Positions 35,161 through 50,761 of a stretch of DNA of 64,000 bases are shown here, piece after piece. The notes below the pieces were generated by a model that saw nothing but the letters and a program-made list of their open reading frames with translations, was not told where the DNA came from and ran no database searches. The position numbers and the translations under genes were made by a program. This DNA is from an uncultured Alphaproteobacteria bacterium (GTDB taxonomy: Bacteria > Pseudomonadota > Alphaproteobacteria > UBA6615): positions 1,174,668 through 1,238,667 of the forward strand of contig CALSNJ010000002.1 of NCBI GenBank assembly GCA_943787745.1. Reading direction: 5' to 3'. How positions within the stretch are numbered: position 1 is the first letter of the stretch; each line of letters opens with the position of its first letter.

Positions 35161-36930
35161 CTACTTCTCTGGAATAATGGGCAGGAGCACGTGGGACGGA
35201 TGATCCGGCCCGGTGTGCAACGTCACCTTGCCGCCATAGACATCCAGCGGACGATTGCCTTTCATCTCATGCTTGAAAGGCCCCACGCCATACTGGACGC
35301 GGCCCGCGATTTCCGGTGAACCCGGCTCGTATCCTGACCAGACATAGTCTCGACCACGCACAGCAAGACCAAGACGGTATCCCTCAGGCAACACGATGGA
35401 TGTCACCCAAACTTCGATATCAAGCTCGTAGACTTCACCGGGCGTGAGTGGCTGGACCTCATCATGGGTGTGATAGGGGCGGTAAGGCAGCGTCTGTTCC
35501 GCATCCAGCTTGCGATGGGATGCGCGCAGCCAACCGATGGCGACAGGCGTGTGAGGATCGTTGGCTCCCTTGAACACGATCTCCTTCATATCGGGCGTAA
35601 ACACACGCAACACCAGAAACAGGTCAGCGTCTTCTGTCTCTGAAGAGACAAACAATTTTGCAGCGACCGGACCTGTGATTTCGGTTTCTTTCTCGAGCGG
35701 CGGTGTAAGAAATACCAGACCATCGCCCATCGGGTCATAGGTCACGCTGGTCGCGTCAGACAACGGCGCGTCGGACAGGGAATTGTCCGACGGGTCGAGA
35801 TACATCTCGGTCCATTCTGTCCGCGGAATCGGCCAGGCGTCTTCAGCGCGCTGGACATACTCTTCACCGGGATGACGCACCAGCAGCTGAACCGGCGGCT
35901 GCTCGCCCCAGCCGGTATCCTCGCCCTTCAGGAAATGCCCGAAGAAACGCTTCTGCAGATCGATGCCGTAATCGGTGTAGTAGTGGGTGAAATGCTCCAG
36001 CCCATGCATTTCGAGCCATTTCTGGTCGCTCGCAGAATTCACAAAGCCTTCGGTGTTGCCACGCGGGTGCAGACCCACGCCGCCCCAATTGCCTGATGAC
36101 AGCAACGGCACATTGATCTTGGAAAAGTCCGGCATGCGGGCCTTCCAGTAGTCATCGACCAGCGGATGATCAAGGATATCCCTGCCAAAGTCGCGACGGT
36201 TCTCCGCCAGTTCTTCTTCGGTCATGGTTTCCGGGCCGGAGATCCATTCGCCGTTCATCCGGCTCTTGATGCCGTTCTCACCCTTGCCGTGCTGACGCGG
36301 AACGACGGCGCTGTTGTACCAGACAGATGGGAAACGACAGGCAATGCCGCCATGGTGACCAAGGTCGCGGTAGTAGTCAGCCGCACCTTCCCAAACGCAC
36401 ATCGCGGCCAGGTGTTTGGGCTGCAGCGAAGCCACCTGCCACTGGTTCATGCCGTAATAGGAAATGCCAGTGGTCCCGACTTTGCCATTCGACCATGGCT
36501 GGGTTCCGGCCCAATTGATGCAGTCGTGAAAGTCTTTTGCTTCACGCGCCGACCACACATCCAGAACGCCCTGCGAGCGCCCCGCCCCACGGGAATCCAC
36601 GCGTATACAAATATAACCGTCCGGCACCCACTTCTCCGGATCAACCAATTCCCAGTTCTGGTACCGGTTTGATGAACCAGCAAGGCAGTCGGGATAATCC
36701 TCGATCATCTGTTTCCACTGAAACGGATACCCGTCCTTCCAGTGCAACCATTTGCAATAGGGGCCGTAGCTGATCAGGACCGGGTATTGCCCGTCATCGT
36801 CGGGACGAAAGACATCGCAACGCAGGACAACACCATCATCCATCTCAAGCGGCACATCCCAGTCGATCCGGATACCAGCAACGACCTTGTCGTAGTTCTG
36901 CCCGATATCTGTGTAGTTTTCGCCGTCCAT
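35161..36930 (-). CDS. CocE/NonD family (S15-like) hydrolase, tandem paralogue 1
   Basis: A 589-residue X-Pro dipeptidyl-peptidase / cocaine-esterase type hydrolase: an alpha/beta core then a C-terminal jelly-roll (from about residue 400, including PLTPGEVYELDIEVWVTSIVLPEGYRLGLAVRGRDYV). The nucleophile elbow is GISYYGMNQW with Ser157. GGGAGAGAG precedes the start. The position where CocE has its acid (GWYD) reads GNWGGVGLHPRGN, lacking Asp. A likely catalytic His is in MHGLEHFTHYY. No signal peptide. Last gene of four tandem copies, 13 bases behind copy 2. Substrate unknown; esters or amides are typical. Confidence 0.88.
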   Translation of the reverse strand: MDGENYTDIGQNYDKVVAGIRIDWDVPLEMDDGVVLRCDVFRPDDDGQYPVLISYGPYCKWLHWKDGYPFQWKQMIEDYPDCLAGSSNRYQNWELVDPEKWVPDGYICIRVDSRGAGRSQGVLDVWSAREAKDFHDCINWAGTQPWSNGKVGTTGISYYGMNQWQVASLQPKHLAAMCVWEGAADYYRDLGHHGGIACRFPSVWYNSAVVPRQHGKGENGIKSRMNGEWISGPETMTEEELAENRRDFGRDILDHPLVDDYWKARMPDFSKINVPLLSSGNWGGVGLHPRGNTEGFVNSASDQKWLEMHGLEHFTHYYTDYGIDLQKRFFGHFLKGEDTGWGEQPPVQLLVRHPGEEYVQRAEDAWPIPRTEWTEMYLDPSDNSLSDAPLSDATSVTYDPMGDGLVFLTPPLEKETEITGPVAAKLFVSSETEDADLFLVLRVFTPDMKEIVFKGANDPHTPVAIGWLRASHRKLDAEQTLPYRPYHTHDEVQPLTPGEVYELDIEVWVTSIVLPEGYRLGLAVRGRDYVWSGYEPGSPEIAGRVQYGVGPFKHEMKGNRPLDVYGGKVTLHTGPDHPSHVLLPIIPEK

Positions 36931-36943
36931 GATCTCTCTCCCC

Positions 36944-38689
36944 TTAACGTGCCGGTATCACCGGCAACAACAGATGCGACGGATGCTTCGGCCCACAATG
37001 GATCGTGACATTTCCGCCATAAACACGCGCATTGCGCCCATCGTGAATGAAGGGTCCAACGCCAGTAAATTCGTTCTTCATATTCGAAAGCTTGCCACCC
37101 GAGCCGCCCGGATAAACATAGTCCGTTCCACGAACAGTCAGGCCAAGGCGATAGCCCGGCGGCACGACAATTGAGGTCGGCCAGACTTCGACATCCAATT
37201 CATAGACCTGACCCGGTTTGAGCGGCTGCTCCTCATCATGGGTATGATGGGGCTTGTGACGACGTGATTTTTTCGCATCAAGCTTCCGATGTGAGGCCCG
37301 CAGCCAACCTTGCGCAATCGGCGTGTGTGGATCGAGCGCGCCCCTGAAGGTGACTTCCTTTAAGTCTGGTGCAAACAGACGCACCACAAGAAACAGGTCG
37401 GCATCCTTGGTCGCGGAAGACACAAACAATTTCGCCGCGAGCGGTCCGGTCACTTCCATGGCCGTTTCAGAAGCCGGCATCAGAAAAGTGACCCCGTCCC
37501 CGAGCCCGGCATATGTGCTCTTCTGTTTTTTGGCAGGCACCTTTGCCGCCAACGCACCGGTGGCGGGCTCCAGATAGGCTTTGGTCCATTTCGTGCGCTT
37601 GAGTGGCCATTCCTTCTCGGCGCGCGGCACAAAGACCTCACCGGGGTGCCGGATATTCAACTGCACCTTCGGCTGCTTCGTCCAGCCCGTGTTTTCACCT
37701 TTCAGGAAATGCCCGAAGAACCGCTTCTGAAGATCGAGGCCGTAATCGGTGTAGAACTCGGTCCAGTGTTCACGACCATGCATCTCAAGCCATTTGTCCT
37801 GAGTTGCCGCATTCACAAATCCGTCGATATTTCCGCGCGGATGCAAGCCCTGCCCACCCCAATTGCCAGCCGACAGAAACGGCACATCGACCTTCGACCA
37901 ATCAGCGGACCGCCCGCGATACCAATCGTCATCCAGCGTGCGTGTGCGCAATTCCTTCGGCAAATCTTCGCGGTTCTTCTTGAGCTGTGCCCGCGTGTAA
38001 GTCGGTGGGCCGCATACGAGATCGCCATGCACGACCGAACGCGGACCATTCTTGCCCAGCCCGTGCTGCACGGATTCTACCTGCTTGTCGTACCAGTTGG
38101 TCACAAAGGTCGACAGGATGCCGCCGTGATAATTGGAATCCCGGTAGTAATCTCCCGCTCCTTCCCAGACGCACATCGCAGCGAGATGGGGTGGCTGCAG
38201 GCGCGCCACATGCCATTGATTTATGGCGTAGTAGGAAATCCCGTTCAGACCGACTTTCCCCGTCGACCACGGCTGGACGCCAGCCCACTCGATGCAATTG
38301 TAGAAGTCCTGCGTCTCACGCGGCGAACGCACATCGACGACGCCCGGTGAGCGCCCCGATCCACGTGAATCCACCCGGATCACAACATAACCATCGGGCA
38401 CCCATTTCTCCGGGTCGACCACCTCCCAGTTGGCGTATTTGTTGGTCGTGCCTTCGGCCACTTCGGGAAAGTTGTCGATCATGATGTTCCAGGCGGTTTC
38501 GTAACCCTCCTGAAACGACAACCCCTTCGCATAAGGGCCATGGCTCATGATGACCGGATACCGGCCCTTTCCCTTCGGGCGAAAAACATCAGCCCGCAGA
38601 ACGTTGCCATCGTCCATTTCGATCGGCACATCCCACTCGATCCGCATGCCATCGCGAATTTCACTTCGATACTGTTTGTCCTTCGCCAT
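36944..38689 (-). CDS. CocE/NonD family (S15-like) hydrolase, tandem paralogue 2
   Basis: A 581-residue paralogue sharing the architecture of its neighbours: RDGMRIEWDVPIEMDDGNVLRADVFRP at the N-terminus, VDSRGSGRSPGVVDV, nucleophile elbow GISYYAINQW (Ser152; Ala in place of the usual Gly), GNWGGQGLHPRGN at the acid position, MHGREHWTEFYTDYG and a C-terminal beta domain. A Lys/Ala-rich insert (ALAAKVPAKKQKSTYAG) distinguishes it. ATG follows AGGGGC, six bases after the stop of copy 3, indicating translational coupling. Confidence 0.88.
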   Translation of the reverse strand: MAKDKQYRSEIRDGMRIEWDVPIEMDDGNVLRADVFRPKGKGRYPVIMSHGPYAKGLSFQEGYETAWNIMIDNFPEVAEGTTNKYANWEVVDPEKWVPDGYVVIRVDSRGSGRSPGVVDVRSPRETQDFYNCIEWAGVQPWSTGKVGLNGISYYAINQWHVARLQPPHLAAMCVWEGAGDYYRDSNYHGGILSTFVTNWYDKQVESVQHGLGKNGPRSVVHGDLVCGPPTYTRAQLKKNREDLPKELRTRTLDDDWYRGRSADWSKVDVPFLSAGNWGGQGLHPRGNIDGFVNAATQDKWLEMHGREHWTEFYTDYGLDLQKRFFGHFLKGENTGWTKQPKVQLNIRHPGEVFVPRAEKEWPLKRTKWTKAYLEPATGALAAKVPAKKQKSTYAGLGDGVTFLMPASETAMEVTGPLAAKLFVSSATKDADLFLVVRLFAPDLKEVTFRGALDPHTPIAQGWLRASHRKLDAKKSRRHKPHHTHDEEQPLKPGQVYELDVEVWPTSIVVPPGYRLGLTVRGTDYVYPGGSGGKLSNMKNEFTGVGPFIHDGRNARVYGGNVTIHCGPKHPSHLLLPVIPAR

Positions 38690-38695
38690 GAGCCC

Positions 38696-40465
38696 CTACT
38701 TTGCTGGAATGATCGGCAGCAGGAGATAGCCCGCGTGATCGCCACCCAAATGCACGGTCACATTGTTGTCGAACACTTCAGGCGGACGATCCGTCTCGTC
38801 GTCATGGAGAAACGGTCCCACGCCGGTGAATGTGTTCTTCATGTTCGACAGCCCGGAATTGGGTTCACCGGGATAGACGTAGTCACAACCCCGGATCGAC
38901 AACCCGAACCGATAGCCTTTGGGCACCACGATTCCGGTTCCATGAATCTCGATATCGAGCTCGTAGATTTCACCCGGCGTGAGCGGCTGCACCTCGTCAT
39001 GGGTGTGCTGGGGCGCATATTCCTCGGACTTGGCCGCATCAAGTTTGCGATGGGAAGCCCGCAGCCAGCCCGACCCGACCGGTGTGTGAGGATCGAGCGC
39101 CCCCCGGAAGGTGACTTCCTTCATGTCTGACTGGAACACCCGCAGGACCACGAACATGTCCGCATCCTTTGTATCTGAAGAAATGTTCAGCTTCACCGCC
39201 ATCGGGCCGCAGATTTCAGTGTCTTCGGCGGCCGGGTTCGACAGGAAGGTCAGACCATCACCCATCGCCTTATAGGAGATTGCGGCTATTTCACTGGCCG
39301 GCGCGTCTGAAAGGACTTGGCCGACAGGCTCAAAATGGAACTTGGTCCACTGGGTGCGCGGCAGGGGCCAGTCTCCTTCGGCACGCGGGATAAACTTTTC
39401 ACCCGGGTGACGCACATTCAGGGATACCCGCGGCTGGTCCTTCCAGCCGGAATCATCGCCCTTCAGAAAGCAGTCGAAGAAGCGCCACTGCAAATCATTG
39501 CCATAGTCGGTGTAGTAGAGCGACCAGTGCTCCAACCCATGGACCTCAAGCCATTTCTCTTTCGAGCTGGAATGCATGAAACCGTTGAAATTGCCACGCG
39601 GATGTAGCGGTGCACCGCCCCAGTTGGCGCAACTCAGGATCGGCACCTCGATCTTCGAATAATCCACCGCCCGATCGGCAAAGAACTCATCGTCAAGCGG
39701 GTGAGCGCGCAACGAACCGTGGAGATCGAAGCGCGTGGCAGCCAATTCCTCATCTGACAAGGTTTCCGGCCCTGCGGCCCATTCACCATTGGCACGGGAG
39801 CGGAAGCCTCGATCACCATAGCCGTGCTGCAGCTTCATGATCTGCATGTCGTACCAGTTGCGTGCGAAAGAGGAATAAATTCCGCCGTGATAGGATCCCT
39901 CACGGTAGTAGTCGGTTGAGCCTTCCCACGGACAAATCGCAGCCAAGTGCGGCGGTTGCAGCGCGGCGACCTGCCACTGATTGATCGCGTAGTAGGAAAT
40001 GCCGCTCAGACCGACCTTGCCGTTCGACCAGGGTTGGACACCACCCCACTCGATGCAATCATAGAAGTCACGGGCTTCGCGCGAATTGAAGTGCTCCAGA
40101 TAGCCGGGAGAGCGGCCGGCACCACGGGAATCGACACGCACCAAGGCATAGCCGCGCGGCACCCATTTCTCCGGATCCGCAACCTCCCAGGCCTGATGGA
40201 TGTTCGTAGAACCTTCCGGTACATCGGGATGATTCTGACACATCAGATCCCAGCAGGTTTTGTAGAGTTCTTCGAAATGAAGGTCTTTGCCATAAGGCCC
40301 ATAGGACATAATGACCGGATACTGACCATCATCATCAGGACGATAGACATTGGCGCGCAGCACAAGCCCATCATCCATTTCGATGGGCACGTCCCAGTCC
40401 ACGCGCATGCCTTCGCGCACTTCGCTCTTGAACAGCGGATCGCCGGTGTACTTGATATCGTCCAT
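38696..40465 (-). CDS. CocE/NonD family (S15-like) hydrolase, tandem paralogue 3
   Basis: A 589-residue paralogue with VREGMRVDWDVPIEMDDGLVLRANVYRP, elbow GISYYAINQW (Ser157), CANWGGAPLHPRGN at the acid position and VHGLEHWSLYYTDYGNDLQWRFFDCFLKGDDSGW. GGAGGAG precedes the ATG. It is separated from upstream copy 4 by 96 bases that contain a strong 11-bp hairpin, whereas copies 3-2-1 are packed within 6-13 bases. Divergence between copies is spread over the whole length, so the duplications are old. Confidence 0.88.
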   Translation of the reverse strand: MDDIKYTGDPLFKSEVREGMRVDWDVPIEMDDGLVLRANVYRPDDDGQYPVIMSYGPYGKDLHFEELYKTCWDLMCQNHPDVPEGSTNIHQAWEVADPEKWVPRGYALVRVDSRGAGRSPGYLEHFNSREARDFYDCIEWGGVQPWSNGKVGLSGISYYAINQWQVAALQPPHLAAICPWEGSTDYYREGSYHGGIYSSFARNWYDMQIMKLQHGYGDRGFRSRANGEWAAGPETLSDEELAATRFDLHGSLRAHPLDDEFFADRAVDYSKIEVPILSCANWGGAPLHPRGNFNGFMHSSSKEKWLEVHGLEHWSLYYTDYGNDLQWRFFDCFLKGDDSGWKDQPRVSLNVRHPGEKFIPRAEGDWPLPRTQWTKFHFEPVGQVLSDAPASEIAAISYKAMGDGLTFLSNPAAEDTEICGPMAVKLNISSDTKDADMFVVLRVFQSDMKEVTFRGALDPHTPVGSGWLRASHRKLDAAKSEEYAPQHTHDEVQPLTPGEIYELDIEIHGTGIVVPKGYRFGLSIRGCDYVYPGEPNSGLSNMKNTFTGVGPFLHDDETDRPPEVFDNNVTVHLGGDHAGYLLLPIIPAK

Positions 40466-40522
40466 GGTGCTCTCCTCCCGGATAGGGCTTTTGTATTATT
40501 CGTTGCGCCCTTTCGAACAATT

Positions 40523-40550
40523 CGGGCGGCTCGTATCTCCGAGCCGCCCG
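40523..40550 (-). promoter_or_regulatory. Strong hairpin between paralogues 4 and 3
   Basis: CGGGCGGCTCG and CGAGCCGCCCG form a perfect 11-bp stem around a six-base loop, in the only sizeable gap of the hydrolase run. On the minus (coding) strand no clear U-tract follows, so it may stabilise the upstream message, or act as a weak terminator that reduces expression of copies 3-2-1 relative to copy 4. Confidence 0.65.
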
Positions 40551-40561
40551 CATTCATTTTC

Positions 40562-42355
40562 TTACTTTTTGCCGCGTCCCTTTTTCTCAGGGATCACCGG
40601 CAACATCACATAGGCCTGTTCTTTGGGCCCGGTATGCAGCTTCACGCCGCCTCCGAAGATATGAGCCGGCCGGTCGCGCGGATCATTATGGGTAAACAGC
40701 CCGCAACCATTCCAGTTTGCATATTCGCCCACCTGGACACTTGAATCCCCGGGATACACGTAATCGTTTCCGCGAACCGAAAGCGCAACGCGATATCCCT
40801 TGGGAATATTGATGCAGGTCGGCCAGACTTCGACGTCAACCTCATAAACCTTCCCGGGTACGAGCGGCTGTTCCTCATCATGGGTGTGGTATGGCCGATA
40901 TGACAGGCTTTTCTTTTCGTCGAGCTTGCGATGCGACACACGTAACCAGCCCTGCGCGAGCGGCGTGTGCGGATCGAGCGCACCCTGAAAGGTCAACTCT
41001 TTCATATCCGGCGCGAAGGCGCGCACGACCAGGAACAGGTCAGCATCCTCCGTATCAGAGGACACCCAGAGCTTCGAAGCGATGGGCCCTGTGATCTCCA
41101 TGTCTTCTTCAAGCGGCGGAGTCATGAAGGTGACACCCTCGGAGAAGCCCTCATAGGCTGCCTCGCCCTTCCTTTTCTGGGCCGTTGTCGACATGCTCAT
41201 GTCATGGGGATCGAGATAGAACTTCGTCCACTCCGTACGCTTGAGCGGCCATTCATTTTCGTGGCGCTCAACAAAGACTTCACCGGGGTGACGAATCTGA
41301 AGCTGAACCTTGGGCTGCTTGTTCCAGCCATTCTTCTCACCCTTCAGGTAATAGCCGAAGAAGCGCTTCTGCAGGTCCATGCCGTAATCGGTATAGAAAT
41401 GCGTCCAATGCTCAATACCGTGCACTTCAAGCCATTTGTCCTTCGACTTGGACTGCGTGAAGCCTTCAAAGTTCCCGCGCGGATGCAGGCCCTGGCCGCC
41501 CCAGTTGGCCGTCGAGAGCATCGGCACCTTGACCTTGTTCCAGTCGGGCATGCGTGACTGCCAGTACTCGTCCGTGTCGAGTTTGCGAGCGAGGCAGTCT
41601 TCGTAGAAGTTGTTCCGGTTGGCGCCAAGTTCTTCCTCGGTCATTGTGACCGGACCCGCCACCCATTCGGCGTTCATCCGTGAGCGCGGGCCATTCGAGC
41701 CTTTGCCATGCTGCACATTGTAAACCTGCGCTTCGGACCAGTTCTTGACGAACCCGTTGCAAAGAATTCCGCCGTGATGCGCCATATCGCGATAGAAATC
41801 GGCAGCGCCTTCCCACGGGCAGATCGCCGCGAGATGCTTGGGCTGCAGAGCTGCTGCCTGCCACTGGTTCTCGGCGTAGTAGGAAATGCCGTTGAGGCCG
41901 ACCTTGCCATTGGACCAGGACTGGACACCGGCCCAGTCGATGCAAAGCGCAAGGTCCTGCGCTTCACGAAGCGACCAGATATCGATGACACCCGGTGAAC
42001 GACCGGTGCCCCGTGAATCCACGCGGATACACACATAGTCATCGGGAACCCAGCGCTCGGGATCAACAACTTCCCAGTTCTGATATTTCTCACTTGTGCC
42101 GGCAGCGATCTCGGGAAAATCCTCCAGCATGCGCTCATACTGGTCGGCATAGGCATCCTCGAAATGAAGCAGCTTGCCATACGGACCGTAGGTCATGATC
42201 ACGCCGTACTTGCCATTCTTGATGGGCCGATAGACGTCACAGCGCAGGACGACACCGTCATCCATCTCGATGGGAACGTCCCAATCGATCCGCATGCCAT
42301 CACGAACATCGCTGCGTGACTGATCATCCATGTATGCTCGCTTTTTCGTCGCCAT
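40562..42355 (-). CDS. CocE/NonD family (S15-like) hydrolase, tandem paralogue 4
   Basis: First transcribed of the four copies, 597 residues from MATKKRAYMDD behind GGGAGAG; the open frame runs 24 codons further without similarity. It has VRDGMRIDWDVPIEMDDGVVLRCDVYRP, elbow GISYYAENQW (Ser158), ANWGGQGLHPRGN, VHGIEHWTHFYTDYG and the C-terminal beta domain, ending with a basic GRGKK tail. Closest in style to copy 2. The promoter for the run probably lies just upstream at 42450-42455. No export signal: cytoplasmic. Confidence 0.88.
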   Translation of the reverse strand: MATKKRAYMDDQSRSDVRDGMRIDWDVPIEMDDGVVLRCDVYRPIKNGKYGVIMTYGPYGKLLHFEDAYADQYERMLEDFPEIAAGTSEKYQNWEVVDPERWVPDDYVCIRVDSRGTGRSPGVIDIWSLREAQDLALCIDWAGVQSWSNGKVGLNGISYYAENQWQAAALQPKHLAAICPWEGAADFYRDMAHHGGILCNGFVKNWSEAQVYNVQHGKGSNGPRSRMNAEWVAGPVTMTEEELGANRNNFYEDCLARKLDTDEYWQSRMPDWNKVKVPMLSTANWGGQGLHPRGNFEGFTQSKSKDKWLEVHGIEHWTHFYTDYGMDLQKRFFGYYLKGEKNGWNKQPKVQLQIRHPGEVFVERHENEWPLKRTEWTKFYLDPHDMSMSTTAQKRKGEAAYEGFSEGVTFMTPPLEEDMEITGPIASKLWVSSDTEDADLFLVVRAFAPDMKELTFQGALDPHTPLAQGWLRVSHRKLDEKKSLSYRPYHTHDEEQPLVPGKVYEVDVEVWPTCINIPKGYRVALSVRGNDYVYPGDSSVQVGEYANWNGCGLFTHNDPRDRPAHIFGGGVKLHTGPKEQAYVMLPVIPEKKGRGKK

Positions 42356-42449
42356 TCGTACTCTCCCAAACACAAGTTTATCCGCACCGCCAAAACGGTC
42401 GGTTTTCATAAAGACCCGTCGCTTCATGCGGACGGTGCCAAATTTCAGA

Positions 42450-44603: not shown

Positions 44604-44650
44604 CCACATCAAGGCAACCTGCCCGGAAACACCTGATTTATCCTGTTCAA

Positions 44651-44715
44651 GGCTTGGGCAAAGCTGCACATGGCTTGGGCAGGATCAGTAACCTCGTCCC
44701 GCACAATCGCCCAAG
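44651..44715 (+). promoter_or_regulatory. Three CTTGGGC boxes upstream of a sigma-54 promoter
   Basis: GGCTTGGGCA occurs at 44651-44660 and again at 44672-44681 (21 bases apart, two helix turns); a third CTTGGGC lies inverted at 44709-44715. They lie 19-84 bases upstream of the -24 element, the place where enhancer-binding activators of sigma-54 bind. No activator gene is in the window. Confidence 0.55.
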
Positions 44716-44732: not shown

Positions 44733-44748
44733 TGGCACAGTTATTGCG
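44733..44748 (+). promoter_or_regulatory. Sigma-54 (-24/-12) promoter
   Basis: TTGGCACAGTTATTGCG matches the RpoN consensus: GG at 44734-44735 and GC at 44746-44747 are separated by exactly 10 bases, within TGGCAC-N5-TTGC. It lies about 65 bases before the start of the ArcS-like gene and is oriented toward it. Confidence 0.75.
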
Positions 44749-44811
44749 ACTTCTTTCGCAGATCGTCGATCAAGACAAACCGTCTGATCCACGCTCCATG
44801 TGAGGGAACTG

Positions 44812-45846
44812 ATGATACCGATTGAAGATCGCGCCGCGCGCGTTCTGGATTCCGCCAAAAAGATTGAGAGCCCCTTCGCAGTGGATCCCAGCCTGTGCCT
44901 CTATAGCCCGCAGGACAATGTGGACTCGCTCCAACATCCCCGCATTCTCGAATGGCTGAAATTCGTGCGCGAGGACTACACGCCAAAACTTCCGGAATCC
45001 CAGCGGCGAATTCTACTCTTCATGCCCTGCACCCGAACCAAGCCATACCCCTTTTCAACCGAGCACCAGGCCATCAACCAACGGCTGCTCGACAGCGGTT
45101 TTCAACCAACCAACCGGCTCTATCTGCCGCAAGAGTTGCAGGCTCGATTGGCCGACGGATTTTCCCCGGAAACATTAAATCTCTCACCCCTGATCAACAA
45201 CAAGGGAACCGTGATCCATCGGATGGTGATCTCAGAACCCATGGCCGTGGTGCCCTATGAACACATCGCCGAATTCAACGGCAAGCCCTCGCCGGCTGTG
45301 GCCTATGACGATCCCGGATTGTTCGAAAACCGTGGCAATGCTGTCTCGCCCTGGCGCGCTGATTCAACAGCGCAACAGCAATCTGCCAACCGTTGGAAAT
45401 GGGGTGACGAAGAACTCCAAAGCTATGTGGAAATGCACAATGTGATGGCCCAGACGCTGGCCCATGTCGTCAACCGTATTGGCGATCAATACACGGATAT
45501 CGTTTCTTGGGTGGCACCCGGCCTGACTCATCGCAGCTTCGTCATCGCCAATGACGAACGCGCCGCCAACAAGGTCACCAGCAAACGGAAGATTGCGGGA
45601 GAATGGCAATCCCTGACAGGGGCGAATGACCTGCTCCCCGCCAGTTTCCGAATTTCCTGCCTGCCCACACTCGATCAGTGCCGTGAATCCGTCGCCCGCC
45701 TCGCAGACCGGCTCGGAACCGACCTGTCACACGCCAATGCAATCTATGCACGTGGCGGGGCCAAGGCGACACCGCTGGCGCTTCCCGAACTATTGGATGT
45801 ATTGATGAGTTATCTGACGGAACAAAACCAAACGGCCGCAGCCTGA
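44812..45846 (+). CDS. ArcS (DUF5591)-like protein, possible 7-deazaguanine-modifying enzyme
   Basis: A 344-residue cytoplasmic protein. The start is ATG 44812 with GAGGGAA four bases before it; an in-frame GTG 12 bases upstream overlaps that site. Residues 68-85 read ILLFMPCTRTKPYPFSTEH, the exact PC-X3-KPY-X2-S-X2-H signature of archaeal archaeosine synthase ArcS (Pro72, Cys73, Lys77, Pro78, Tyr79, Ser82, His85). Further on, VISEPMAVVPYEH and PAVAYDDPG correspond to the SPLGVVP and YD motifs of that domain. ArcS joins lysine to the preQ0 base of tRNA. The N-terminal TGT and C-terminal PUA domains of ArcS are absent here. The bacterial function is unknown; a nucleic-acid or nucleotide 7-deazaguanine reaction is an inference. 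Likely RpoN-controlled. Confidence 0.7.
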   Translation: MIPIEDRAARVLDSAKKIESPFAVDPSLCLYSPQDNVDSLQHPRILEWLKFVREDYTPKLPESQRRILLFMPCTRTKPYPFSTEHQAINQRLLDSGFQPTNRLYLPQELQARLADGFSPETLNLSPLINNKGTVIHRMVISEPMAVVPYEHIAEFNGKPSPAVAYDDPGLFENRGNAVSPWRADSTAQQQSANRWKWGDEELQSYVEMHNVMAQTLAHVVNRIGDQYTDIVSWVAPGLTHRSFVIANDERAANKVTSKRKIAGEWQSLTGANDLLPASFRISCLPTLDQCRESVARLADRLGTDLSHANAIYARGGAKATPLALPELLDVLMSYLTEQNQTAAA

Positions 45847-45962: not shown

Positions 45963-46754
45963 TTGGATCTCAACCTCAAGGGCAAGACAGCAATCGTGTC
46001 CGGCGGCAACAAGGGGCTTGGTGCAGCTTCAGCCATGGCTCTTGCTGCAGAAGGTGCCGATCTTTTCCTGACGGTGCGCAATGCCGAGGATTTGCAGCGC
46101 ACCGCAGATGAGATCACCAGCGCCCATGGCGTAAAGGTTGGCCTGCTGGCGCTCGACATCACCGAAGAGAAATCCGGAGATCAGATCGTGGCCGCCGCGC
46201 TCGAAGAGTTTGACCGGATCGACATTCTCGTTAACGCCGCCGGCGCGGCCCGTGGCGGGGTCTTCCACGACATTGATGACCAAGTCTAGCGTGACGCCTT
46301 CGAACTAAAATTTCTGGGTGCCGTCAAACTCAGTCGCGCTGTCATCCCCCACATGCAGGCCCAGAAATATGGCCGCATCGTCAACCTGATCGGTATGTTC
46401 GGACGTGAACCTGCCAAGCAGGCCTTGCCAGCATCTGCGGTGAATGCCGCCTTCATGGCCATCAATAAAGGCATGTCCCAGATTTACGGCGGGGACGGAA
46501 TCTTCGTGAACGCGGTTGATCCAGGCCCGACCCGCAGCCAGCGCATCCTTAACCTGTTCGAGAATATGGCCAAGGTGAACAACACGACACCCGAGGAACT
46601 GGAGAACGGATTCCGCCAGCAGATCCCCATCGGCCGACTGGGCGAAATGGACGAGGTCGCGCGCGTGGTGACCTTCCTCGCCTCCGACGCATCGGGCAAC
46701 GTTAACGGGACGGTACTTGCGGTTGATGGCGGAATGTCGAAAGGGCTGTTCTAG
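45963..46754 (+). pseudogene. SDR-family oxidoreductase interrupted by an amber codon
   Basis: A short-chain dehydrogenase of 263 codons in one continuous frame except for TAG at 46287-46289 (codon 109), in a place where relatives have Trp (DDQV-stop-RDAFELKFLGAV). The start is TTG 45963 behind GGGAGAAG. VSGGNKGLGAASAMA (cofactor loop), VNAAGAARGG and VDPGPTRSQ are seen; the usual YxxxK is not in standard form (ALPASAVNAA). A single G-to-A change explains the lesion. No other damage is visible, so it is recent or a sequencing error. Confidence 0.85.
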
Positions 46755-48871: not shown

Positions 48872-50761
48872 CTATGTCCCCTGTCGGGCGGGGCCGTGCA
48901 GACCGGCCACATCGGCGCCCGGCGCCAGGCGGGCCGGGTCGCGCTCAAGGGTTTCGGTCATGACGTCTCGTGCGATCGGAGCGGCCACGGATGACCCCCC
49001 GCCGCCATGTTCAACGACAACCGAAATCGCATAGCGCGGCTTTTCAATCGGGCCGTAGCCGACAAACAATGCGTGGTCGCGGAACTTCCACGGAAGGTCC
49101 TGGTTCTTGATCACCCCACCGTCGCGTTCGCGCAGACTGATACGTCGCACCTGTGCCGTACCGGTCTTACCAGCCATCGAAAACCCCGGCACCTTAATGC
49201 GCGCGGCATGAGCGGTTCCGCGGGGATCCTCCATCACCTCAGCCATTGCCTTCATCATGACATCCAGATGACGCGGATTGACCCCGATCGACTTGGGTTC
49301 AACCGGCGCACGCTCGGCCAGCTCTCCGCGCTGCACAACGTCCCGTGCCAGATGTGGGAGCACTTCCTTGCCACCGTTGACCATGCGCGCCGTCATGATG
49401 GCGAGCTGCAACGGTGTTGTGAGAACAAAGCCTTGCCCAATGCCCGCGACCAGTGTCTCACCCACAACCCATGGCGAACCGATCACGGCGCGCTTCCACG
49501 CCTTGGTGGGCACCAGACCTGATCGCTCGCCAGGCACATCTAGTGCAAGATCTGTCCCGAGGCCAAACCGAGTTGCCATCTTGGCGATCTTGTCGATCCC
49601 AACCTTGCGGGCAATTTCGTAATAGTAGACATCACAGGATTCTGCGATCGAGCGCGCCAGATCAACATGACCATGACCATGCCGGCGCCAGCAGTGGAAT
49701 TTGCCGTCGCCCAGCTCCAGATAACCGGGACAAAAGAAACTGGTGTCGGCCGTGATCACACCTTCCTCGAGCGCGGCCAGTGCCACGATCATCTTGAAGG
49801 TCGACCCCGGTGCATATTCACCGGCAATTGCCTTGTTACGAAGCGGCGCGCGTTCATTATCGGCCAGCGCCCGCCATTGGGAATTGCTCAGCCCTTCCGT
49901 AAAGGCATTGGGATCAAAACTGGGGGTCGACGCCTGAACGATCAGCCCTCCTGTTTCCACGTCCATCACCACGACGGAACCAGACTCATCTCCCAGATGC
50001 CGCATCGCAGAGCGCTGAAGCGCCAGATCCATGGTCAGGACGACATCGCGGCCGGCATCCCCGTTCTGACGATCAAGCTCACGAATCACGCGGCCAACGG
50101 CATTCACTTCGAGTTGGCTGGCACCCGCCTTGCCGCGCAGGGGCTTGTCAAAGGCGCGTTCGACGCCGCTACGCCCGATGCGGAAACCAGGAAGCTCGAG
50201 CAGCGGGTCCCCCGTCAGGTCTTCACGTCGCGGTGCGCCGACATAGCCCAGAACATGCGCCGCTGCGATACCGTTGGGATAATAACGCCGCTCACCGACA
50301 TCGATCGTTACACCCGGTAAGTCAGGCGCGTTGACCTCCAGCCGTGCAACATCTTCCCATTCGAGAAATTCACGCACCGTGACTGGAACGAATTTCTTCT
50401 TGCGCCGAATTTCCTTCAAGATGCGCGCTTTCTCGTCCGCATCAATCGGAATGATCATGGCAAGACGATCGAGCACAGCCGAAACATCAGGTGTGTTCTC
50501 AGATTTGATCAGCACCCGATAGTTCTGCTGGTTGACGGCCACGGGCACACCAAAGCGATCCAGAATCCGTCCACGCGAAGGAGGCAACAACCGCATATTG
50601 ATGCGGTTCTCTTCCGCGAGCATGTGGTAGCGCTCGGATTCCACGACCTGCAGATAATACATCCGTCCCACAAGCGCTGTCAGAAGACCCAGTTGTCCTC
50701 CGGCAAGCAGCGCCGCGCGACGGGTGAAAAACCGTTGGCGATCATTGTCCCGGCTGTTCAT
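48872..50761 (-). CDS. mrdA: Penicillin-binding protein 2
   Basis: Elongasome DD-transpeptidase of 629 residues. The start MNSRDNDRQR overlaps the mreD stop by four bases. A single membrane anchor lies at about residues 15-33. Catalytic motifs are STFK with Ser320 in YAPGSTFKM, SCD (SESCDVYYYEIARKVG) and KTG (AGKTGTAQV). The dimerisation domain contains LLPPSRGRILDRFGVPVAVN and the loop VLGYVGAPRREDL. It acts with RodA in the cell membrane. Confidence 0.97.
   Translation of the reverse strand: MNSRDNDRQRFFTRRAALLAGGQLGLLTALVGRMYYLQVVESERYHMLAEENRINMRLLPPSRGRILDRFGVPVAVNQQNYRVLIKSENTPDVSAVLDRLAMIIPIDADEKARILKEIRRKKKFVPVTVREFLEWEDVARLEVNAPDLPGVTIDVGERRYYPNGIAAAHVLGYVGAPRREDLTGDPLLELPGFRIGRSGVERAFDKPLRGKAGASQLEVNAVGRVIRELDRQNGDAGRDVVLTMDLALQRSAMRHLGDESGSVVVMDVETGGLIVQASTPSFDPNAFTEGLSNSQWRALADNERAPLRNKAIAGEYAPGSTFKMIVALAALEEGVITADTSFFCPGYLELGDGKFHCWRRHGHGHVDLARSIAESCDVYYYEIARKVGIDKIAKMATRFGLGTDLALDVPGERSGLVPTKAWKRAVIGSPWVVGETLVAGIGQGFVLTTPLQLAIMTARMVNGGKEVLPHLARDVVQRGELAERAPVEPKSIGVNPRHLDVMMKAMAEVMEDPRGTAHAARIKVPGFSMAGKTGTAQVRRISLRERDGGVIKNQDLPWKFRDHALFVGYGPIEKPRYAISVVVEHGGGGSSVAAPIARDVMTETLERDPARLAPGADVAGLHGPARQGT

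Follow-up and report, generated by a model that had tools for sequence, protein, structure and literature searches.

The window, by which we mean the whole 64-kb stretch of alphaproteobacterial DNA analysed here, encodes a stand-alone protein built on the core domain of the tRNA-modifying enzyme ArcS (DUF5591), and we put at about 60% the probability that it is a small-molecule enzyme that takes part in breaking down a purine-like N-heterocycle for use as a nitrogen source. Its substrate is most likely a free small molecule because the relatives of the protein sit in purine and N-heterocycle catabolic clusters. What holds, judged from sequence comparison, is that the ArcS core has a rare stand-alone branch in alphaproteobacteria whose gene context, the new information here, ties it to N-heterocycle breakdown. 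If the proposed role is true, a catalytic core known from tRNA modification has been put to a new use, the breakdown of small ring molecules, in a small family with culturable carriers (Martelella, Kaistia and Rhizobium). In the literature searched, DUF5591 was found only with tRNA and phage DNA modification, and nothing joined the names of the cluster's enzymes.

A stand-alone ArcS core domain

The protein (344 amino acids) is encoded on the forward strand at 44812-45846 by an open frame without stops; the same frame reaches upstream to a GTG at 44800, and the ATG at 44812 is taken as the best start because all relatives align from it. The exact ArcS signature that the sequence-only reading had noticed is borne out by the translation and by a pattern count: motif 1, PCTRTKPYPFSTEH (residues 72-85; 45025-45066, forward strand), fits PC-X3-KPY-X2-S-X2-H at every position, and this pattern occurs once in the six-frame translation of the window against an expectation of 2.5e-5. 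P72, C73, K77, P78, Y79, S82 and H85 are invariant in seven of the seven aligned sequences (the window protein and its relatives, which are 68-75% identical to it), and all belong to the 175 invariant positions common to the alignment. Loss of the cysteine and lysine among close homologues had been named beforehand as a possible refutation, and both are kept throughout. The low expectation, the Pfam match described below and this invariance rule out a chance motif. The dN/dS ratio is low (for example 0.219/2.08 between the window and the locus L008), which points to purifying selection.

The Pfam model DUF5591 (PF17884) matches the window protein with 30 bits against a gathering cut-off of 26 (E = 5.6e-7), over residues 47-92 alone (positions 3-44 of the 150 in the model). 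In a profile search the window's genome scored above the cut-off, and among 14 control genomes archaea alone matched. We also compared by hhalign a profile of six window-type sequences with one of five viral DUF5591 proteins, namely the contig protein L019, a Synechococcus phage protein (L042, 40.1 bits for DUF5591) and those of the Sulfolobus viruses STSV1, STSV2 (71.6 bits) and STSV4. The two profiles align over residues 65-308 (E = 7.8e-6, probability 84) with all three motif blocks paired: PCT..KPY..S..H of the window family with viral PCTSVKPYNRSATH, SEPMAVVPYE with SEPMLLVPRE of STSV2, and AYDDP with viral SYDYP. The later segments, VISEPMAVVPYEH (motif 2, residues 139-151; 45226-45264, forward), which also matches SSP-LVVPRE of AF0587, and PAVAYDDPG (motif 3, residues 161-169; 45292-45318, forward), which matches the YD block of DUF5591, were thus rightly said to stand in DUF5591 order, and the profile check that had been proposed gave a match with both methods, with Pfam over a short stretch and with hhalign over the three blocks.

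A profile that includes the window protein retrieves the solved structure 2q07 (AF0587) at E = 6.6e-12 and the viral proteins alone retrieve it at E = 3.5e-10, while the window-family profile by itself does not. The three paired blocks and the 2q07 profile matches assign the window protein to the ArcS core domain: it has the same signature, S-x-P-x-x-VVP-x-E block and YD block in the same order as DUF5591 and AF0587, and differs from ArcS in an insertion between blocks 1 and 2 (at about residues 100-133) and in a longer C-terminal part.

Two AlphaFold models of the protein are of middling quality (pTM 0.72 and 0.73, pLDDT 67-68). Foldseek gave no significant match for the first, and VIA-align gave, for both, matches that all lie below its guide value of Z 8, including UDG at Z 5.5 and TDG at Z 5.1; 2q07 is absent from the VIA-align matches listed. 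Uracil-DNA-glycosylase-type chains recur among the weak matches of both models, so that a fold of this kind is no more than a lead.

Distribution

The protein has only a few relatives, all of them close. Six were found: in a metagenome-assembled genome of the same genus (L001, a 6002-base contig apparently identical with G005/L009), in a genome of the same family (L008, from G009), in Kaistia dalseonensis (L002), in two Martelella (L003 and L004) and on a plasmid of Rhizobium sp. ACO-34A (L011). The gene was present in 2 of 385 class genomes sampled, the window's own included, and in 1 of 398 phylum genomes, again the window's own; a profile search found DUF5591 in no other genome among 398 of the phylum. 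This patchy spread over distant alphaproteobacterial hosts and a plasmid suggests horizontal transfer. A phage or prophage origin of the gene was rejected, as no close homologue was found in viral contigs or phage records. A degenerate DNA pattern of the signature had five matches in the viral contigs, one of which, L019, probably encodes a DUF5591 protein (22.9 bits, slightly short of the Pfam cut-off).

Gene neighbourhoods

Homologues and their gene neighbours had been suggested as a check, and all six relatives turned out to lie within N-heterocycle breakdown clusters, which are of two types. In type A, represented by L008 and, in part, by the short contig L001, the ArcS-core gene adjoins the genes of a molybdenum hydroxylase with three subunits and of a ring-opening amidohydrolase scoring above the cut-off for cyanuric acid amidohydrolase (548 bits in L008 against 360). 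The L008 cluster further encodes an allantoicase (424 against 278), an allantoinase PuuE (520 against 425) fused to an OHCU decarboxylase (208 against 96), a xanthine permease (428 against 414), a hydantoinase/dihydroorotase-type enzyme and a biuret-hydrolase/RutB-like enzyme.

Type B is represented by L011, with similar gene sets in L002-L004, not every gene being present in every locus. Here the ArcS-core gene stands immediately 3' of a flavin monooxygenase gene, and the run comprises an HpaB-type monooxygenase, a flavin reductase, a PuuE-like allantoinase, an 8-oxoguanine-deaminase-type enzyme, an amidase, an arylmalonate-decarboxylase/EutA-like protein, an AraC regulator, a substrate-binding-protein-like gene, an aminotransferase and an aldehyde dehydrogenase. 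L011 holds two deaminases of one superfamily, one of which is an 8-oxoguanine deaminase above the cut-off (618 bits against 532), with a matching ORF in L003. Ring oxidation, deamination or ring opening, steps that are typical of purine-like compounds, are represented in both types, and apart from the ArcS-core gene the two have few genes in common. No close homologue of the type A hydroxylase was found in the type B hosts, so the oxidising partner would differ there.

The relatives are embedded in purine/urate and N-heterocycle clusters of a known kind (allantoicase, PuuE-UraD, AtzD-type hydrolase, xanthine-dehydrogenase-like molybdenum hydroxylase); in the literature searched we found no account of an ArcS-core protein among their components. 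The window copy, in contrast, stands alone outside such a cluster, and its neighbours are a deaminase-like gene, an isomerase-like gene and peptidases. Directly after it lies a short-chain dehydrogenase gene (45963-46754, forward) with an in-frame stop at 46287-46289 beyond which the frame continues, either a decayed gene or a sequencing error. Elsewhere in the window, four similar S15-type (X-Pro dipeptidyl-peptidase-like) hydrolase genes stand in tandem on the reverse strand (35161-42427).

Co-occurrence with a molybdenum hydroxylase

Among the 24 genomes of the family, the large subunit of the hydroxylase (at least 82% identical) occurs in G000 (the window's genome), G005 and G009 alone. 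Exactly the same three genomes carry the ArcS-core gene, and the other 21 have neither. Such a match has a chance of 1 in 2024 if independent, which is optimistic for related genomes of which two of the three share one locus; the true odds are weaker, owing to shared ancestry and transfer. The ring-opening hydrolase (81-90%) is found also in G017 and G019, both of which lack the ArcS-core gene and the hydroxylase. In the window's genome the ArcS-core gene is on contig C2, apart from the hydrolase and the hydroxylase, which are both on C3, so the pairing cannot be put down to linkage alone. On C3 (G000:C3:280976-286066; L034 and L035) the amidohydrolase and hydroxylase genes are divergent, and the ArcS-core gene, their neighbour in G005 and G009, is missing from this locus.

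Promoter region

A sigma-54-type promoter is predicted from a pattern match, TGGCACAGTTATTGC (44733-44747, forward), 64 bases upstream of the ATG. The pattern has two matches in the window against 0.34 expected, and the second match, at 50119, overlaps a cell-wall gene that is encoded on the opposite strand. Two 18-nt direct repeats with a spacing of 21 nt (44643-44681, forward) precede the promoter and form a possible activator site. RpoN is present in the window's genome (437 bits), and in L008 a strict sigma-54 site is placed 38 bases upstream of the first gene in the same-strand run that ends with the ArcS-core gene. Such a putative promoter suits nitrogen-controlled catabolism.

Proposed function

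The nitrile of preQ0 is the group on which ArcS acts. We propose that in the window protein the pocket of the core would hold a free 2-amino-4-oxo-pyrimidine-fused ring of purine, 7-deazapurine or pterin type, as base or nucleoside. Cys73, the likely nucleophile, would attack with Lys77, Tyr79, Ser82 and His85 an electrophilic carbon (a nitrile or a ring C=N), and the adduct would be resolved by water or an amine. The product might go to, or the substrate come from, a ring-oxidising enzyme (molybdenum hydroxylase or flavin monooxygenase) and ring-opening amidohydrolases. All of these points are our inference: that the protein is an enzyme, what Cys73 does, that the substrate is free and in which order the steps follow. 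Ordinary purines, 7-deazaguanines, pterins and other rings are possible substrates, and the neighbouring enzymes fit purines, pterins and other rings equally well; pterin breakdown was considered since pterin deaminases fall in the same superfamily as the deaminases of the clusters. Several points weigh against the proposed role: the window copy is outside a cluster, types A and B share few genes, the type B hosts lack a close homologue of the hydroxylase, the odds given for the co-occurrence are optimistic, the Pfam model covers only a short stretch of the protein, and the characterised ArcS of T. kodakarensis is inactive on the free preQ0 base (PMC11298593).

Alternative readings

The sequence-only reading had left open free 7-deazaguanines, DNA or an unrelated substrate. 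A free small molecule gains from the purine and N-heterocycle clusters of the relatives, and a tie to DNA modification or to archaeosine found no support. The sequence-only reading had rightly described the protein as lacking the TGT and PUA parts: Pfam (E up to 1) finds DUF5591 as the sole domain, and TGT-like, TGT_C2 and PUA domains are absent. The NCBIfam archaeosine synthase models reach 29.1 bits against a cut-off of 600 and 24 against 440, over the same stretch as the DUF5591 match. Searches of the window's genome were made family by family; among the genes that had been suggested for such a search, queC was not found by profile search (best 23.3 bits against 150.3), and a bacterial TGT is present (399.7 bits against 306.75; L047, G000:C2:1479513-1480649). 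By these profiles the host cannot make preQ0 by the QueC route and probably depends on salvage; TGT without QueC suggests that its queuosine, too, comes by salvage only. The missing TGT-like and PUA parts, the scores far under the ArcS cut-offs and the lack of QueC lead us to reject archaeosine synthesis, and a divergent archaeosine synthase serving an archaeosine-type tRNA modification in bacteria, for which the exact signature speaks, is extremely improbable, the more so with the relatives placed in catabolic clusters. A role in DNA modification or anti-phage defence, as in dpd systems or phage ArcS, would accord with the DUF5591 proteins without tRNA parts that occur in phages and archaeal viruses. 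It is nevertheless highly improbable, given that no close homologue was found in viral contigs or phage records and that no DNA-modification genes were recognised beside any relative; dpd-type genes were recognised neither in the window nor in L001-L004, L008 and L011, and tgt-type genes neither beside the ArcS-core gene nor beside its relatives. A RaSEA radical-SAM partner was likewise not noticed in these neighbourhoods.

The remaining alternatives concern which ring is broken down. A shift of the ArcS core to a ring outside the purine-like type, such as a pyridine or a triazine, is doubtful, though several points speak for it: the best plasmid relatives of the hydroxylase (40-46%) include a 6-hydroxypseudooxynicotine dehydrogenase, the ring-opening enzyme lies above the cyanuric acid amidohydrolase cut-off and HpaB relatives are found in varied clusters. 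Allantoicase, PuuE-UraD, the xanthine permease and 8-oxoguanine deaminase nonetheless point to purines, as does a distant relative of the first deaminase that adjoins a nucleoside hydrolase and a BMP-type transporter. As a special case of the preferred reading, the protein might be specific to 7-deazaguanines and convert the nitrile or aminomethyl 7-substituent of salvaged preQ0, preQ1 or queuine for degradation or salvage. To our knowledge, and in the literature searched, there is no description of a natural degradation of 7-deazaguanines such as queuine, for which the ArcS-core gene is a concrete candidate. The signature of an enzyme that acts on the preQ0 nitrile is intact, TGT without QueC means that 7-deazaguanines probably come from outside, and in type B a guanine-type deaminase occurs together with an aminotransferase and an aldehyde dehydrogenase, which could process the aminomethyl group. 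The last two, however, are common in catabolism, the neighbourhoods showed neither a nitrilase nor a preQ-type transporter nor any known 7-deazaguanine gene, and the T. kodakarensis enzyme does not use the free base (PMC11298593), so that this specificity is unlikely. Still less likely is the full version, in which a tRNA-free ArcS core would process the 7-substituent of preQ0, preQ1 or queuine before ring oxidation and opening in the first known degradation route for these bases.

Viral stand-alone DUF5591 proteins

The lack of tRNA parts is not unique to the window protein, since archaeal viruses (STSV1, STSV2 and STSV4) and cyanophages (Synechococcus phages Yong-L2-223 and Ssp-JY38) likewise have DUF5591 cores without them, with about 24-33% identity to the window protein and in a very different context. 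The proteins of STSV2 (L043), STSV1 (L044) and STSV4 (L045) are small and annotated as hypothetical, and a thymidylate synthase gene lies shortly upstream of the one in STSV2. The Synechococcus phage protein (L042:2665-3582) has an extra N-terminal part, annotated as acid phosphatase in a sister phage; its gene adjoins one annotated as acetylornithine aminotransferase.
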